Source: Eremomyces bilateralis CBS 781.70 (Eukaryota > Ascomycota > Dothideomycetes > Eremomycetales > Eremomycetaceae). From it: a DNA stretch of 64,000 nucleotides. The DNA lies in assembly GCF_010015585.1 (NCBI RefSeq), contig NW_022985068.1, forward strand, positions 370,571 through 434,570, given 5' to 3'. The translations under genes were made by a program, and so were the position numbers. Below the pieces are notes generated by a model. That model worked only from the letters and a program-made list of their open reading frames with translations. It was not told the origin of the DNA and ran no database searches. Every line of letters begins with the position of its first letter. Position 1 is the stretch's first letter. Shown piece after piece: positions 37,077-45,803 of the stretch.

Positions 37077-38125
37077 ATGAAGGCGACCACGGGGGCCTTC
37101 GCCCTTACTTTCATCACATCGGTTGCAGCGCATGGATTTGTGAGGAGCGTGAATGTTGATGGAGCCATGTCAGTCACCCTTAAACTCATACGCACGGTTC
37201 TCCGACATACTAATAGAACCAGATATCCCGGTTTCAACCCGTAACTAGCCCCCACGGCTCCAATGTTTCTATTCTCACCACATACAGGCATATGGACGGT
37301 GAATTGGGCGCAAAGCGGATAGTATTCGGTTTCGACGCCAGCCGCGCCAACGTCGACGGAACCGCCGCAATCACCGACCCCAACGCGCCCGGCCTCGCGT
37401 GCAACAGCAAGCCCACCCCACCCGGCGACAAGGCCGAAGCGCGGGCCGGCAGCCAAATCGAGTTCCGCTGGACCGAATGGCTCCCGAGCCACCGCGGTCC
37501 GATCACCACCTACATGGCGCCTTACGAGGGCGACATCGCCGCCGTCGATGTGAATAAACTGCAGTTCTTCAAAATTGATGAAGAGGCGTTGTATGCGGAC
37601 GAGCAGTTCGGGGAAATAGACGATGTTCCCTGGGCGGTGAAGCCGAACTGGGCGACCGACAAGATGATCCAGGCGAACGGCGTGTGGAACGTCACGATTC
37701 CGTGGGATATCAAGCCGGGGAACTACGTGGTCCGCCACGAGCTGCTCGCGCTGCATTTCGCGACCGAGCACAGTAATTATAAGAGTTTCGGCATCGTGGC
37801 ACCGCAGTTCTATCCGTCTTGCTACCACGTCGGGATCACTGGGAATGGAACCGCCACGCCGACGGGCGTCACATTCCCCGGCACATACCAACCGACCGAT
37901 CCGGGGCTGATCTTTGACATATACCAGAACAAGACTGAGTATCCCATTCCCGGCCCGGCAGTGTATCTTCCCAAAGGCCCGGCGCCAGAGCTAGAGGCAA
38001 AGGAGCCGAGAATCATCAGTCCGACGGGGGATCCGGCGAAGGATGCGGAGTACATGAAAGCGATGGAGGGCGAGCTCAGCTTCTATGCAAACATAACTAA
38101 TCGCATCTACAAGGTCGGAGGATGA
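37077..38125 (+). CDS. Lytic polysaccharide monooxygenase, AA9 family (secreted)
   Basis: AA9 enzymes are copper-dependent and cleave cellulose or related glucans oxidatively outside the cell. Exons are 37077-37168, 37223-37240 (only 18 nt) and 37288-38125, giving 315 residues. The signal peptide is residues 1-18 and is followed by H19, which becomes the N-terminal copper ligand of the histidine brace (HGFVRS). The second ligand is H105 in WLPSHRGP and the axial tyrosine is Y212 in PQFYPSCY; Q210 is also kept, so the active site looks complete. C75 and C215 probably form the conserved disulfide. The segment YPGFNP encoded by the small exon is typical of AA9 proteins, which supports including it. 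There is no CBM1; instead about 60 residues, Pro/Glu-rich then amphipathic, follow the catalytic domain. Plant-cell-wall breakdown is the family role; the actual substrate is not known. Confidence 0.93.
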
Positions 38126-39524
38126 TGGCGCGGCATGTGAACATAAGACCATTACTCCTTCCGAAATTCTGTCTCGTCAAACTCTGTTACGGAATTACCT
38201 ACCTAGCTTGAAATCAAACATGTGTGGACGCAAGCCCTCGCCAGTCAAGTTGGCACAGAGGTCGCACTTCTATTGGTCATCGACGATAATAAGGAATTAT
38301 CAGACCCTGAAAGTGAAAACATGCTTCCCAAGCCCTCCATCATAGATCGATTATGCTCGGCCGCCTGCGCCAATACAGACAACAGTCCGGATGTTCCGCG
38401 TGCTTGTCCAATCGAATAACCGCGCGTTTAACCGCGAATGGGGTGGTGTCCGTAGTGCACATCATCGAGATTCTAAGAAGTGTAACTAGGTAGTCGGACT
38501 ATCGGAGTCCTCGGAGAGCATCGGCGATCGAGCTGCTTTATTGTCCAGGGGCTTCCATGATCCTGCATTTTAGCGGGGAGGTTGCTGAGCAAATGTATAA
38601 TTATTACTCGATAGTTTGCAACATTGTGAATCTAACAAAATGAAGTTATCCGAAGCATATAGCGATCGGCGACCGTCCATTCTCGAAGGAGTGTGCGTAT
38701 AGGATAATGTGGAAGTCAGTGGTGATCAGTGCCTTGTTCGTTGGACCCTGACTGTGGGGGGGAACCTGCAAGCACTTCTTCGTCTTCATCACCATCCTGG
38801 CACCTCGCTAACAACAGCCCGTTAGACTGTCCAGCCACTGGAAACATCATCTCAACATCGCTACACATATACCATATAACATATTGCAGCTATTTCTTGC
38901 AGTTGAGCCATCAAAGAATCAGTCTCGTGTGATGCTGAAGTGGTTGACACCTGACAGACGGTGGTGGTGCTGGTGAGACGTTACAGACGCAGGAGAAACG
39001 CGCCAATAAACCTTTGTTCCGGTCTCCGGAGCCAAATTCTAGAACGGTCCAATTCTTCGCCGCGGGTGGGAACAAGGAGATGGCACCGTAGCAGCCCTGG
39101 CCGGATCATGCGGGCACTAATTACAGGAATTAGTGCAACCTTGCGATCGGACGCATCACTGAAGATCGGAAATCTGTCGCCCTGTAGGCTGTAGCTGAGC
39201 GTGTGAACGAAACACCGCGGACCGCGATATCTGCGATGTGGTGAGATATGCGAGCCCTCGCTGTCTCTCTGTTATTTGACGATCTGACTACAGCATTATT
39301 GGCAGTTTCACCAGTTTGGCACACTACCCTACGGCTTGCGCATCCCGAAACTCCGTAACTCGGCGCCCGCTTGCCCGTGTGGTTCGATATATTGAGCCAG
39401 GACACCAAACACAAGACTCGGCTTATTCAAACGTTCGCTCAACGGCGATTCGAATACACTCGGCAACAGAACTATCGGCCAGTGCGCTGAACACTGTTTC
39501 GGGCCGTTATGAGTTAAGGACTGA
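38126..39524 (+). promoter_or_regulatory. FRQ upstream region with clock-box-like motifs and small ORFs
   Basis: This 1.4 kb interval precedes FRQ. In Neurospora the corresponding region is a long promoter and leader bound by the White Collar complex, whose sites centre on GATC-type cores such as GATCGA. Here GATCGA occurs at 38345-38350 and 38526-38531, and the palindrome CGATCG at 38525-38530, 38663-38668 and 39144-39149. Several short plus-strand ORFs (38222-38419, 38729-38932, 38961-39194, 39316-39528) precede the start, reminiscent of the uORF-rich frq leader. The functional reading is inference; only the motifs and frames are seen. Confidence 0.45.
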
Positions 39525-42317
39525 ATGACCCAATGTGTCCAGCGTAGCGCTGGATCACCAAATCCAATCTCCACCGTCCGACGTAGCAAAGTGGAGATGA
39601 CGCACCGGCTTCGAACGGACCCTATCGATGTCGAACGACCGGAACTGCATCCTCGACGACCTCCTGATTATCGGCCTGTTTTGCTATGGCATAAGACGCC
39701 AGGAATGCAACTGTCGCAGCAGAGCATCCTTGCGGATCCGTCTGGCACATCTTCGACTTCCGCAAGCCATATATCCGTGCCAACCAAACCCTCTATCCAC
39801 AAGAACATCTCCAGCAAAAGCAGCAATGCGGAACGATGGTTTGAGTTGTCGAACAACAACGTTCAAAGATGGAATTCCTTGATGGACAACGAGCCGCCGT
39901 TCTTCCTCCGAAATCCTTCGTCTTCTAAAGCGACTCCTTCCGAGGGCTGTCCCCCTTTCTTTCAGCCTCTCAACGCCCTTCCCTGCCACCCGGAACCTCC
40001 GCCGCAACAAGAGAGTTCGTCAGAGGATTTCCGGAGCATCATTGATGATCTGACGATCAAGAATAAGCGGCTTCGGCGGAGGTTGAGGAAGTACGAGAAG
40101 GTTCATGATGGCCATTTGAACGATCAGAAACTCTTCGAGATTCGGGTTCATGGTCTGAATCGGGAGCGGAAAACCGAATTGGAGGGTATCCTTCGGCAGT
40201 TTGCGACAACTGCTGACCATCAGAGGCCGATGGATGCGGTAACTGGCACTGGAGCTACAAGTAATGGGATAGGCACTGTGGAACCCAAGCGGAGTTTATT
40301 CATCAAAAATCCCTCTAGAAATTCCGATTCGGCATACGCATCGATGTTCATGTCAGGCCAGAACCCATCAATCCAGAACCTTTCCAAGCAGATCTCCACA
40401 CACTCTTCGTCGATGAACAGTAATCAAAGTACATCTTGGAGAGCCCTATCCTCCCGTCAGCAGCAAGACATCCAATCCTACCCTAAGGATATACCTACAG
40501 GGTTACGTCCACAACCATCCGCGACTCTGTCAGAAAAGGCTCGAAGGAAGCTTGTTGTTCGTCGACTGGAACAGATCTTCGCCGGTAAAGGTCCCGTGGG
40601 CGCGCACGAGCATCCCGAGCAGCAGGAAGAGATTGCACAATCCGCTGCGCGGGCGGATAAAAAGTTGATTGAAGACATGGGTCGGCGGGATAAGGATGAG
40701 GATATGCGTGAAGCGCGCATCATGCCAAAGGATTCACTGGATATAGCCAAGGCAGATCAACCAGGGAAGTTGGAAGATGGATCTACGAGTGACGTGGAGA
40801 TGACCAGCGACAACGGCCCCGATCAGCGACCGACACGTCCGCTGGATCTTGATCCACATCGTGCGCAGGACCCGCGAGAGAACATCGAGTATATCCGACA
40901 TCTGGGATTCTTGCCGGCAGGCTCCGATTCGAGCGAACCGCGAACAGATGACCACGGGTGGGTTTACCTGAACATCTTAACCAACATGGCGCAGCTGCAC
41001 ACGATCAGTGTGACCACCGACTTTGTGAAGAACGCGATATCGGAATACAGCCAGAAGTTGGAGTTGTCGCACGATGGATGCAAAGCGCGCTGGAGAGGTG
41101 GCCGCGACGTCACTCGCACCAGCAGCGATGCGTCGCTGGAAGAGAAGGACGAGCTCGGGGGCGAAGATGATAATGCAGGGCCCCCTCGAAAGCGGGCGAA
41201 GGTTAGCGTTGGTACAAGTGGTCAATCCTGCCGTGGCTCGAACGGAATGCAATCTACCCCCGACTCGAAGTCGAATTATAAATACGCCTATCAACCACTC
41301 TTCTTCCGGAGGGAAAGCTCGGAAGACGATGAGGAGGACTCAGACGAGTTCTCACCCTGGTCCTCGCCTCAACATGGTCAAGCAACTGGAAACTCTTCCG
41401 GCCTTACCAGCTCTGGCGTCGATAACGCCAACCGCCGACGACATCGAGAAGACGGTCCGATCATATTCTACAATAAAGCGCCGTTCTTCACCGACTTGAG
41501 CGGCGACCACACTCCTCTCTCCCACCAAATCCTGTCGCAGCCCCAAGCAGATGACCTCCAAGCTCGAAAGCCCATCGGCCTCAAGCGCGAACGCATATTC
41601 TCTTACGACTCCCGCGGCGACACCGACCTGTCCGATCGTCCCTTGAACTACGTCCCAACATCTGAAATCGGCGGGAATTCAGACAAACCCCCTCTGGAAC
41701 CCTCGTCCGATGACCTCAGATTCTCCCCAGGATTTCTCCAAAGCTACCTATCGTCCAACGACGAGCGACCCCGCGGCGTCGACTTCGAAGCCTCCGGGAT
41801 CGGTGGCGTCCAGCCGAGCGACCACTTTGCCATCGATGTCCGCAGCATACAGACCGTTCACGGACCCCGGGAGCAGAACCACCACTCCCATCGCCATCAC
41901 TCGCGGCTCTACCAATCGAAGATCGCCGATGCGTTATCGCAACGGCCAAGCCACGAGCGCAAAGGATTATGCGAACCCCACCAAGGAAGGCCCTCTCCCG
42001 CCGCCAATCCTAACCAGATCATCTCCTCCCGCCTCCGCAACCTCCCCGTTTCCATCCTCCCCCCACCCACGTTTCTATCACTCCCATCCACCGACTCCGA
42101 CGTCTCCGACTCCGACGAAGGCCGAGACACCTCGAGCGTCTCCGCCAAGCACGGCCTGGATCTGTGGCCCGCGCTGATAGATTCCCACGAGGTGGAGATA
42201 GAGGATTCCGGCGGGTATTTCTCGGAAGATGAGGGCGGATCCAGCGACCTGTTGGCAGACGTGGATCTGCGAGCTGCAGGTTATGCAGGAGGTAGCGGCG
42301 GCGGGGAATTGAAATGA
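39525..42317 (+). CDS. frq: Circadian clock protein FREQUENCY (FRQ)
   Basis: FRQ is the negative element of the fungal circadian oscillator: with FRH and casein kinase 1 it inhibits the White Collar complex and is progressively phosphorylated. The uninterrupted frame encodes 930 residues; Neurospora FRQ has 989. Conserved elements in order are SSNAERWFELSNNNV (99-113), NEPPFFLRN (122-130), a coiled coil at about 168-228 (DDLTIKNKRLRRRLRKYEK, KLFEIRVHGL), a CK1-interaction type helix LSEKARRKLVVRRLEQIF (335-352), and the second CK1-binding type segment ENIEYIRHLGF (452-462). Further on come GWVYLNILTNMAQLH (478-492), ARWRGG (521-526), a nuclear signal PPRKRAKVS (553-561), and the FRH-binding-like block DGPIIFYNKAPFFTDLSGD (643-661). 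Late LPVSILPPPTF (840-850) also fits. Low-complexity Ser/Pro/Asp linkers separate them, as expected for a disordered, multiply phosphorylated protein. In-frame ATGs at codons 1, 25, 61 and 120 leave the start uncertain. Confidence 0.93.
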   Translation: MTQCVQRSAGSPNPISTVRRSKVEMTHRLRTDPIDVERPELHPRRPPDYRPVLLWHKTPGMQLSQQSILADPSGTSSTSASHISVPTKPSIHKNISSKSSNAERWFELSNNNVQRWNSLMDNEPPFFLRNPSSSKATPSEGCPPFFQPLNALPCHPEPPPQQESSSEDFRSIIDDLTIKNKRLRRRLRKYEKVHDGHLNDQKLFEIRVHGLNRERKTELEGILRQFATTADHQRPMDAVTGTGATSNGIGTVEPKRSLFIKNPSRNSDSAYASMFMSGQNPSIQNLSKQISTHSSSMNSNQSTSWRALSSRQQQDIQSYPKDIPTGLRPQPSATLSEKARRKLVVRRLEQIFAGKGPVGAHEHPEQQEEIAQSAARADKKLIEDMGRRDKDEDMREARIMPKDSLDIAKADQPGKLEDGSTSDVEMTSDNGPDQRPTRPLDLDPHRAQDPRENIEYIRHLGFLPAGSDSSEPRTDDHGWVYLNILTNMAQLHTISVTTDFVKNAISEYSQKLELSHDGCKARWRGGRDVTRTSSDASLEEKDELGGEDDNAGPPRKRAKVSVGTSGQSCRGSNGMQSTPDSKSNYKYAYQPLFFRRESSEDDEEDSDEFSPWSSPQHGQATGNSSGLTSSGVDNANRRRHREDGPIIFYNKAPFFTDLSGDHTPLSHQILSQPQADDLQARKPIGLKRERIFSYDSRGDTDLSDRPLNYVPTSEIGGNSDKPPLEPSSDDLRFSPGFLQSYLSSNDERPRGVDFEASGIGGVQPSDHFAIDVRSIQTVHGPREQNHHSHRHHSRLYQSKIADALSQRPSHERKGLCEPHQGRPSPAANPNQIISSRLRNLPVSILPPPTFLSLPSTDSDVSDSDEGRDTSSVSAKHGLDLWPALIDSHEVEIEDSGGYFSEDEGGSSDLLADVDLRAAGYAGGSGGGELK

Positions 42318-42788: not shown

Positions 42789-45700
42789 ATGGGGTCACGT
42801 CCGGATTTGAAGGTGGACGACGAGGTCGGCTTTATTAGATTCTTCCGGAACCTGCCCACCACCAACGGGGACACCGTCCGAATATTCGACCGGGGCGAGT
42901 TCTACACGGCACATGGGGAGGATGCTCAGCTCATTGCGCGGACGGTATGTGTAGTTTTTCCTGGCAGTTGAATGAGGCAAAATTGGTCTAATTAGGCGCC
43001 TGCCAGGTCTACCGAACCACTTCGGTCATCCGACAACTTGGCCGCGAGCCAGGTCTTGACTCCGTCACGCTCTCCGTGACGGTGTTCCGAAACTTTCTTC
43101 GCGAAGCGCTGTTTCGGCTCGGCAAACGGGTGGAAGTATGGGAGAGTTCCGGCGGACGAATGAATTGGAAGATCACGAAGCGAGTATGTTCTCCAACCAG
43201 CCCTACATCTACCTTCGTACTGACCGAAACTTCAGGCTTCCCCAGGTAATCTCCAAGACATCGAAGACGATCTCGGCGGCCAAATCGACTCTGCCCCCAT
43301 CATCCTCGCCGTCAAAATCACCGCCCGCGCCGCCGAAGCCCGCCACGTAGGAGTTTGCTTCGCCGACGCCAGCGTGCGCGAGCTCGGCGTCTGCGAGTTC
43401 CTCGACAACGACCTCTACTCCAACCTCGAGTCGCTGCTCATCCAGCTCGGCGCGCGCGAATGCCTCGTACAGGCGGATGCGGCCGGCAAGAATGTGGATC
43501 TGGCGAAGATCCGCGCGATCGTCGACAACTGCGGGTGCGCGTTGGCGGAGCGGGCGTCGTCAGATTTTGCCACGAGAGATATTGAGCAGGATTTATCGAG
43601 GTTGTTGAGGGAAGAACGGGCCGCCGGGGTGTTGCCGCAGATGGATCTGAAGCTCGCGATGGGGAGCGCGGCGGCGCTGTTGAGGTATCTGGGGATCATG
43701 TCGGATTCATCGAATTTCGGGCAATATCAGCTGTACCAGCACGATCTGTCGCAGTACATGAAGCTCGACGCGTCGGCGGTTCGAGCGCTAAACCTGATGC
43801 CTGGCCCTAGAGACGGCGCGAAGACGATGAGCCTGTATGGACTCCTGAATCATTGCAAGACACCAATCGGGAGTCGGTTGCTCGCACAGTGGTTAAAGCA
43901 GCCACTAATGAATGTCGAGGAAATTGAGCGGAGACAGCAGCTGGTGGAGGCGTTCGTGGAGGATACAGCGCTACGGCAGACAATGCAGGAGGAGCATCTC
44001 AGGAGCATTCCGGATTTGTATCGGCTCGCGAAGAAGTTTCAGCGGAAAGCGGCGAACTTGGAGGATGTGGTAAGGACGTATCAGGTCTCCATACGGCTGC
44101 CAGGATTTCTGGGGCTGCTGGATGCCGTGATGGATGAGAGGTATCAAGATGCTTTGGAAAAGGAGTACACGACCAAGCTTCGAGTAGGAAATTCGATCTC
44201 CGTTTACCGTTCTATACTAACAGCTATACAGGAGTACTCCAACAGCCTGGCGAAGCTACAGGAGATGGTCGAAACAACCGTGGACCTCGAAGCGCTCGAC
44301 AACCATGAGTTCATCATCAAACCAGAATTTGATGACAGCCTCAGGACCATTCGGAAAAGACTAGACAAGCTCAAGTACGAGATGGGAGTGGAGCAGAGGA
44401 AAATCGCTCAGGATCTTGACCTAGACATGGATAAGAAGCTATTCCTTGAGAATCACCGTGTACACGGCTGGTGCCTACGTGTCACTCGAGCGGTACGTGT
44501 TTCTCCTGCATGTGGACAATACAGTTCTAACTTCTTGATAGGAATCAAGTTGCATCCGCGGCAAGAGGCAATACCAAGAATGCTCTACACAGAAGAACGG
44601 TGTTTATTTCACCACCTCCACCCTCCAGGCATATCGACGAGAGTTTGACCGGCTTTCTGAGACCTACAACAGAACTCAAAGTGGCCTCGTAAACGAGGTG
44701 GTTGGTGTTGCTGGTAAGTCGTTGTACCCCTTTAAACCCTTCCCTTCTAAATAATCCCAGCATCATATTGTCCGGTCATAGAAAAATTAGCAGGCGTCAT
44801 CGCCCATCTTGATGTCATCGTCAGCCTAGCCCATGTTTCCGTTCACGCCCCTACACCATACACCCGACCCAAGATGCATGCCCGTGGCACGGGCAATACC
44901 ATTCTCAAGGAAGCCCGACATCCCTGCATGGAGATGCAAGACGACGTCCAATTCATCACCAACGATGTCACCCTCGAGCGCAGCAAATCCGAATTCCTCA
45001 TCATCACGGGCCCAAACATGGGCGGCAAATCCACGTATATCCGACAAATCGGCGTGATCGCGCTGATGGCTCAAGTCGGCTGCTTCGTCCCCTGCTCCGA
45101 AGCCGAACTCACCATATTTGACTGCATCCTCGCCCGCGTCGGCGCTAGCGACTCGCAACTCAAAGGCGTGTCGACCTTCATGGCGGAGATGTTAGAGACG
45201 GCGAACATCCTGAAGACCGCGACGAAAGAGTCGCTCGTCATCATCGACGAGCTGGGCCGTGGGACGAGCACGTACGACGGGTTCGGCCTCGCGTGGGCCA
45301 TCTCCGAGCACATCGTTCGCGAAATCGGGGCGTTCGCGTTGTTCGCGACCCATTTCCATGAGCTGACCGCCCTGGTCGACTCGTACCCGCAGGTCCAGAA
45401 CCTGCACGTCGTTGCGCACATCTCCGACGACGACGACGGCTCACAGTCGAAGCGAGAGGTCACGTTGCTCTACAAAGTGGAGCCTGGCGTCTGCGACCAG
45501 TCGTTTGGGATCCACGTCGCGGAGTTGGTACGTTTCCCGACGAAAGTCATCAACATGGCGAAGAGGAAGGCGGATGAGTTGGAGGACTTCTCCGGGAAGC
45601 ATGAGAAACTGACGAAGCAGGCGTCGAAGGAAGATGTGGAAACAGGGACGAGGATGTTGAAGGAATTGCTGAAGCAGTGGAAGCAAGAAGTCGAGGGAGG

Positions 45701-45803
45701 GGAGTTGAGTGAACAGGAGCAGGTGGAGAGGATGAGATCCTTGGTGAATTCGAATAAGGAGCTGTTGGAGAATCCGTTCTTCCAGAATGTTCAAGTTCTA
45801 TGA
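42789..45803 (+). CDS. MSH2: DNA mismatch repair protein MSH2
   Basis: MSH2 is the common subunit of the MutS-alpha (MSH2-MSH6) and MutS-beta (MSH2-MSH3) mismatch sensors in the nucleus. Exons are 42789-42944, 43007-43183, 43236-44492, 44542-44713 and 44761-45803, giving 934 residues, normal for the family. The N-terminal MutS I domain starts [14 protein letters not shown] and contains [14 protein letters not shown]. The connector and lever domains cover about 130-600. The ATPase at about 640-860 has Walker [11 protein letters not shown] (about 671-680), the ABC-like loop STFMAEM, Walker [13 protein letters not shown] and the FATHFHELT motif. A helical dimerisation region follows to the end. 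All catalytic motifs are intact. Each of the four introns (49-62 nt) contains a stop or shifts frame, so accurate splicing is needed. Confidence 0.97.

Follow-up and report, generated by a model that had tools for sequence, protein, structure and literature searches.

The window, a 64,000-nucleotide stretch of the Eremomyces bilateralis CBS 781.70 genome, carries on its forward strand an uninterrupted open reading frame (39525..42317; 930 codons followed by TGA, with no internal stop and no intron) that we assign to the circadian clock gene frequency (frq). The translation matches the Pfam FRQ family (PF09421) at E = 3.5e-121 with 406.5 bits, far over the curated cut-off of 26.6 bits, and the match pairs residues 43-869 with positions 12-865 of the 983-position model. 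A profile search of the assembly (26,628,646 bases in 62 contigs; E <= 0.001) returned this frame as its single PF09421 match. The first-pass annotation, made from the DNA letters, had described a complete FREQUENCY gene with a 930-codon frame and had proposed the PF09421 search as a check; the description was borne out.

For the comparison with Neurospora crassa FRQ we used an approximate reference sequence, and all phmmer and alignment figures given here rest on this approximate copy. The reference is roughly trustworthy, because published residue numbers land on the correct letters: Leu-165 and Leu-169 (PMC4592989), the basic run 194-199 (PMC9911066), Asp-660 (PMC10320511), and the DHF triad 774-776 (PMC12796302). 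Against this reference the frame scored 261.5 bits in phmmer, whereas the top score among 500 copies with shuffled residues was 5.5 bits. Global alignment gave 303 identities over 842 paired positions (36%). A sequence search of the solved structures in the PDB with the FRQ frame returned no match at E <= 1. Scans with patterns derived from the frame, which as single-protein patterns reach only close relatives, hit viral_contigs 29 times and genome_contigs 106 times, and no hit was confirmed.

The landmarks previously claimed for the protein, namely a coiled coil, two segments for interaction with CK1, a nuclear signal (here a basic, NLS-like run), and the APFFTDLSGD block, are all present in the family order when placed by alignment (Table 1). 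For the CK1a-binding segments FCD1 and FCD2 we used approximate N. crassa boundaries, and Ser-513 of N. crassa, the period-determining phosphosite, faces a serine in the new protein. In the coiled-coil region, Leu-183 and Leu-187 face Leu-165 and Leu-169 of N. crassa, two leucines described as important for the contact between FRQ molecules (PMC4592989). The DHF triad is likewise in place; its replacement by three alanines in N. crassa abolishes FRH binding (PMC12796302).

Table 1. Features of the frq gene and its surroundings (positions are those of the window; residues are numbered from the first ATG)
Feature	Residues	Position	Strand	Remark
AA9 lytic polysaccharide monooxygenase		37292-38125	+	PF03443, E=1.7e-53; tandem, 1.4 kb upstream of frq
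frq upstream intergenic region		38126..39524	+	mild GATCG/CGATC excess; upstream ATGs
Candidate alternative start, ATG	codon 25	39597..39599	+	906-aa product; G at -3
Coiled-coil region	171-211	40035..40157	+	located solely through alignment with the N. crassa FRQ reference
FCD1, CK1a-binding segment, VVRRLEQI	344-351	40554..40577	+	7/8 identical to the N. crassa reference
FCD2, CK1a-binding segment, ILTNMAQL	484-491	40974..40997	+	5/8 identical, Q490 kept
Serine facing N. crassa S513	509	41049..41051	+	alignment; S confirmed at 513 of the reference sequence
Basic NLS-like run PPRKRAKV	553-560	41181..41204	+	faces N. crassa basic run near aa 564-568
APFFTDLSGD family block	652-661	41478..41507	+	alignment
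FRH-binding region block SGIGGVQPSDHFAIDV	DHF = 766-768	41793..41840	+	DHF faces N. crassa 774-776
C-terminal LPPP block RLRNLPVSILPPPTF	836-850	42030..42074	+	alignment; a short acidic tail comes next
MutS gene, read as MSH2-type		42789-45800	+	directly downstream of frq; MutS II, III, IV, V from 43224 on

The 5' end of the coding region allows two readings. The first ATG (39525) has a T at position -3, is immediately preceded by an in-frame TGA, and lies downstream of a two-codon frame ending at 39517; the second candidate lies at codon 25. In the alignment with N. crassa FRQ, residues 1-10 of the two proteins are matched to each other before a gap of 18 sets in. This favours neither the 930-residue nor the 906-residue product, and the PF09421 match starts only at residue 43.

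Codon usage of frq is unremarkable, with a codon adaptation index (CAI) of 0.463 and an effective number of codons (ENC) of 55.4, near the values for WC-1, GCN1, RasGAP, and VAC14. The sample comprised 17 gene pieces minus exon 3 of MSH2 and the 3' piece of WC-1, both of which had been read in the wrong frame and contain stops. FAS alpha and a CK1a exon served as the CAI reference, and the CAI of these two is hence not independent.

We also searched the genome for the proteins with which FRQ works in N. crassa. A search with the GATA profile gave seven matches at six loci; the frames of all six were read by motif, and those on contigs C35 and C40 were scanned with Pfam. WC-1 lies on C35, where one open frame holds a LOV-type PAS domain with the motif GRNCRFLQ, and the adjoining frame holds PAS_3, a weaker extra PAS match, and GATA. 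WC-2 lies on C40, with PAS and GATA within one frame. A search for the DSHCT domain detected two genes through three exon matches. The best solved relative of the gene on C19 is N. crassa FRH (5e02; 1081.2 bits with a query of 835 amino acids), and its Pfam matches to the MTR4 stalk and beta-barrel likewise identify it as the MTR4/FRH orthologue. The gene on C8 matches Ski2_N, which identifies it as SKI2, and also the stalk. Beside SKI2, a 438-residue frame (L018 1263-2576, reverse strand) resembles by eye a transposase of the pogo/Fot1 type.

Among 39 kinase matches to N. crassa CK1a, for which the reference was again approximate, the CK1a gene on C15 ranks first. Its two main exons agree with the reference at 94% (residues 26-198) and 100% (residues 192-283), and its first frame matches Pkinase in Pfam. 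Two weaker CK1-like genes lie on C19 (44-63%) and C23 (53%). WC-1, WC-2, FRH, and CK1, the four partners for which the first-pass annotation had recommended a search, are thus all encoded in the assembly. Neither of the outcomes that it had named beforehand as speaking against a FREQUENCY gene, no match to the FRQ family or a genome without WC-1, WC-2, and FRH orthologues, was what we found.

When the LOV domain of WC-1 was used as a query, it recovered itself and one more match (31%) on C3. This second LOV-like match (near 601400 of C3; L037 146-2059) is apparently split by an intron. Judged by motif, it appears to belong to the fungal RGS-LOV type and not to be a VIVID protein.

The intergenic region upstream of frq contains nine GATCG/CGATC motifs, compared with 3.88 +/- 2.00 in shuffled sequences. 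Seven of 500 shuffles reach this count, as do 1.8% of the equal-length sliding stretches of the window. Three palindromic CGATCG sites count double in this figure, and the motif is one of four that were tried. The remaining three occur at ordinary frequency: two copies of GATCGA are reached by 143 of 500 shuffles, and the counts of GATC and GATA by 163 and 229, respectively. The excess is suggestive of possible White Collar sites and becomes weak once the palindromes and the number of motifs are considered. The 599 bases preceding frq also contain six ATGs; upstream frames are known for N. crassa frq as well.

The neighbours of frq are unremarkable for a chromosome of a filamentous ascomycete. 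The window holds 25 long frames, 20 of which were scanned with Pfam besides frq (4 of the 20 without a match); the AA9 frame was scanned too. The scan named GCN1, SAGA-Tad1, a PRP6-like HAT protein, a legume-like lectin, allantoicase, a WD40 protein, ankyrin and DIL frames, RasGAP, a short-chain dehydrogenase, VAC14, and a pyridine nucleotide-disulphide oxidoreductase closest to dihydrolipoamide dehydrogenase. The start of the MutS gene was placed by eye near 42789. The msh-2 and frq genes of N. crassa share a chromosome, and an old linkage is possible.

Taken together, these findings place at about 0.96 the probability that the gene is orthologous to FREQUENCY, which acts as the negative element in the circadian clock of fungi. 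It is a new copy of a known family, ordinary in kind, and changes no mechanism. Given that the genome has all named parts, the standard FRQ/White Collar loop, summarized in PMC12796302, offers the simplest interpretation. By analogy with N. crassa, the White Collar complex of WC-1 and WC-2 would activate frq, and the mostly disordered FRQ would dimerize through its coiled coil, hold FRH through the DHF region, and hold CK1a through FCD1 and FCD2. FRQ would then deliver CK1a to the White Collar complex, the phosphorylation of which would shut down frq transcription, until slow hyperphosphorylation inactivates FRQ and the cycle restarts. We infer the interactions, the light response, and the rhythm in E. 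bilateralis from Neurospora.

The intact oscillator claimed for the locus is deduced from gene content, namely the genes for FRQ and every named partner, and a working oscillator is probable. Several observations weigh against a standard loop. The nuclear localization signal NLS1 of N. crassa (194-199) is hardly kept, with two of six positions identical in the alignment, and the acidic tail at the C terminus does not reach the length seen in N. crassa. The second CK1a frame on C15 has no Pfam match at 0.001, and the region upstream of frq (38126-39524) contains no bipartite GATNC...CGATN element. No VIVID-like LOV protein was found with the WC-1 LOV query among the best candidates when exons were scored singly. 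Moreover, frq, wc-1, and wc-2 together are reported not to suffice for a clock, and frq of Verticillium dahliae is largely unresponsive to light (PMC9508176).

One alternative is that the gene, although a genuine orthologue of FRQ, has ceased to drive a circadian clock and now acts in light response or development. V. dahliae and a non-rhythmic Beauveria system are suggested precedents (PMC7493669, PMC7140403, PMC9508176), and no VIVID emerged from the search with the WC-1 LOV query. However, the landmarks essential for the N. crassa rhythm are conserved, which points to selection still acting on the clock role, and we consider such a change of role unlikely. A decaying frq pseudogene is highly improbable: no evidence for it was found, only the 5' end being uncertain, whereas the 930 stop-free codons, a PF09421 match spanning most of the model, and the intact functional motifs speak against decay. 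N. crassa FRQ is ~85% disordered (PMC12796302) and compositional false positives are conceivable, but a serine-rich, disordered protein that resembles FRQ by composition only is refuted by the PF09421 match and the shuffle control, and conserved blocks such as VVRRLEQ and DHF align in order.

An orthologue of FREQUENCY within a probable standard loop thus remains our preferred reading. The genes for the negative-arm complex (FRQ, FRH, and CK1a) and for both White Collar proteins occur together in a compact 26.6-Mb assembly, which adds one more well-supported genome to the map of frq clock retention.

The value of frq as a marker of lineage is smaller than had been proposed. The gene has been reported from Sordariomycetes, Leotiomycetes, Dothideomycetes, and Pezizomycetes (PMC4592989) and also from Lecanoromycetes and lichenized Eurotiomycetes; it is missing notably in the Trichocomaceae with Aspergillus and Penicillium, and it is older than the Dikarya (PMC9508176). 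An older paper (PMC4592989) describes the Eurotiomycetes as lacking frq, and the gene was later reported in the Eurotiomycete Dermatocarpon miniatum (PMC9508176). The assertion that Eurotiales lack frq agrees with this literature for the Trichocomaceae (PMC9508176). Reports of frq cover six or more classes of filamentous ascomycetes (PMC9508176, PMC4592989), and its presence argues mainly against Trichocomaceae and little more; it is a weak clue to lineage, and its rank as the best one is not supported. It fits Pezizomycotina outside Aspergillus and Penicillium.

Comparison of other proteins with solved chains is of limited help. FAS alpha matches 4v58 (2962.5 bits) ahead of 7q5s (2849.6 bits), and the C-terminal exon of isocitrate lyase matches 1dqu (222.4 bits) ahead of 5e9f, 5e9g, and 5e9h (208.6, 208.6, and 203.6 bits). 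We take 4v58 to be from Thermomyces (Eurotiales), 7q5s and 6hqv from Chaetomium (Sordariales for 7q5s), 1dqu and 1dqs from Aspergillus nidulans, and 5e9f, 5e9g, and 5e9h from Fusarium and Magnaporthe. The N-terminal exon of AROM shows the opposite order, with 6hqv (312.2 bits) ahead of 1dqs (296.3 bits); 6hqv is also on top for the large AROM exon, of which 1dqs covers only residues 1-195. The three markers thus disagree, two leaning to Eurotiales and one to Sordariales. The top chain for the dihydrolipoamide dehydrogenase piece, presumably from yeast, is uninformative on class.

A search for 5.8S rRNA, in which 39 of 941 candidates were scored, gave no match at E <= 0.001 in the 62 contigs; the assembly may lack the rDNA repeat, or the search may have overlooked it. 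Among open-licence papers, none was found on frq, Chaetothyriales, and circadian rhythm in combination. We entertain, as a doubtful proposition, a small-genome lineage near Eurotiomycetes or Lecanoromycetes for which a complete frq clock is undescribed and which has FRQ, WC-1, and WC-2 without a photoadaptation protein of the VIVID type. If true, it would be a natural test of how a frq loop copes without VIVID.

The closest comparison is with FRQ of N. crassa. Both proteins share the order of coiled coil, FCD1, FCD2, basic run, APFxTDLSGD, DHF, and LPPP block. In contrast to N. crassa FRQ (989 amino acids), the protein from the window has 930 or 906 amino acids, a different N terminus, and the shorter acidic tail; it keeps the two NLS1 residues noted above and has the basic run 553-560. 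FRQ of Pyronema confluens offers a further comparison (PMC4592989). The FCDs are conserved in both proteins (strongly in P. confluens), and the N. crassa nuclear localization signal is not conserved in P. confluens and hardly kept here. The FRH-interaction domain is only moderately conserved in P. confluens, whereas the DHF triad is intact in the new protein. The frq genes of the lichens Umbilicaria pustulata and D. miniatum, likened here by their description, belong to the same family and are reported together with homologues of wc-1, wc-2, and frh; in both lichens light-dependent expression of frq has been measured (PMC9508176).
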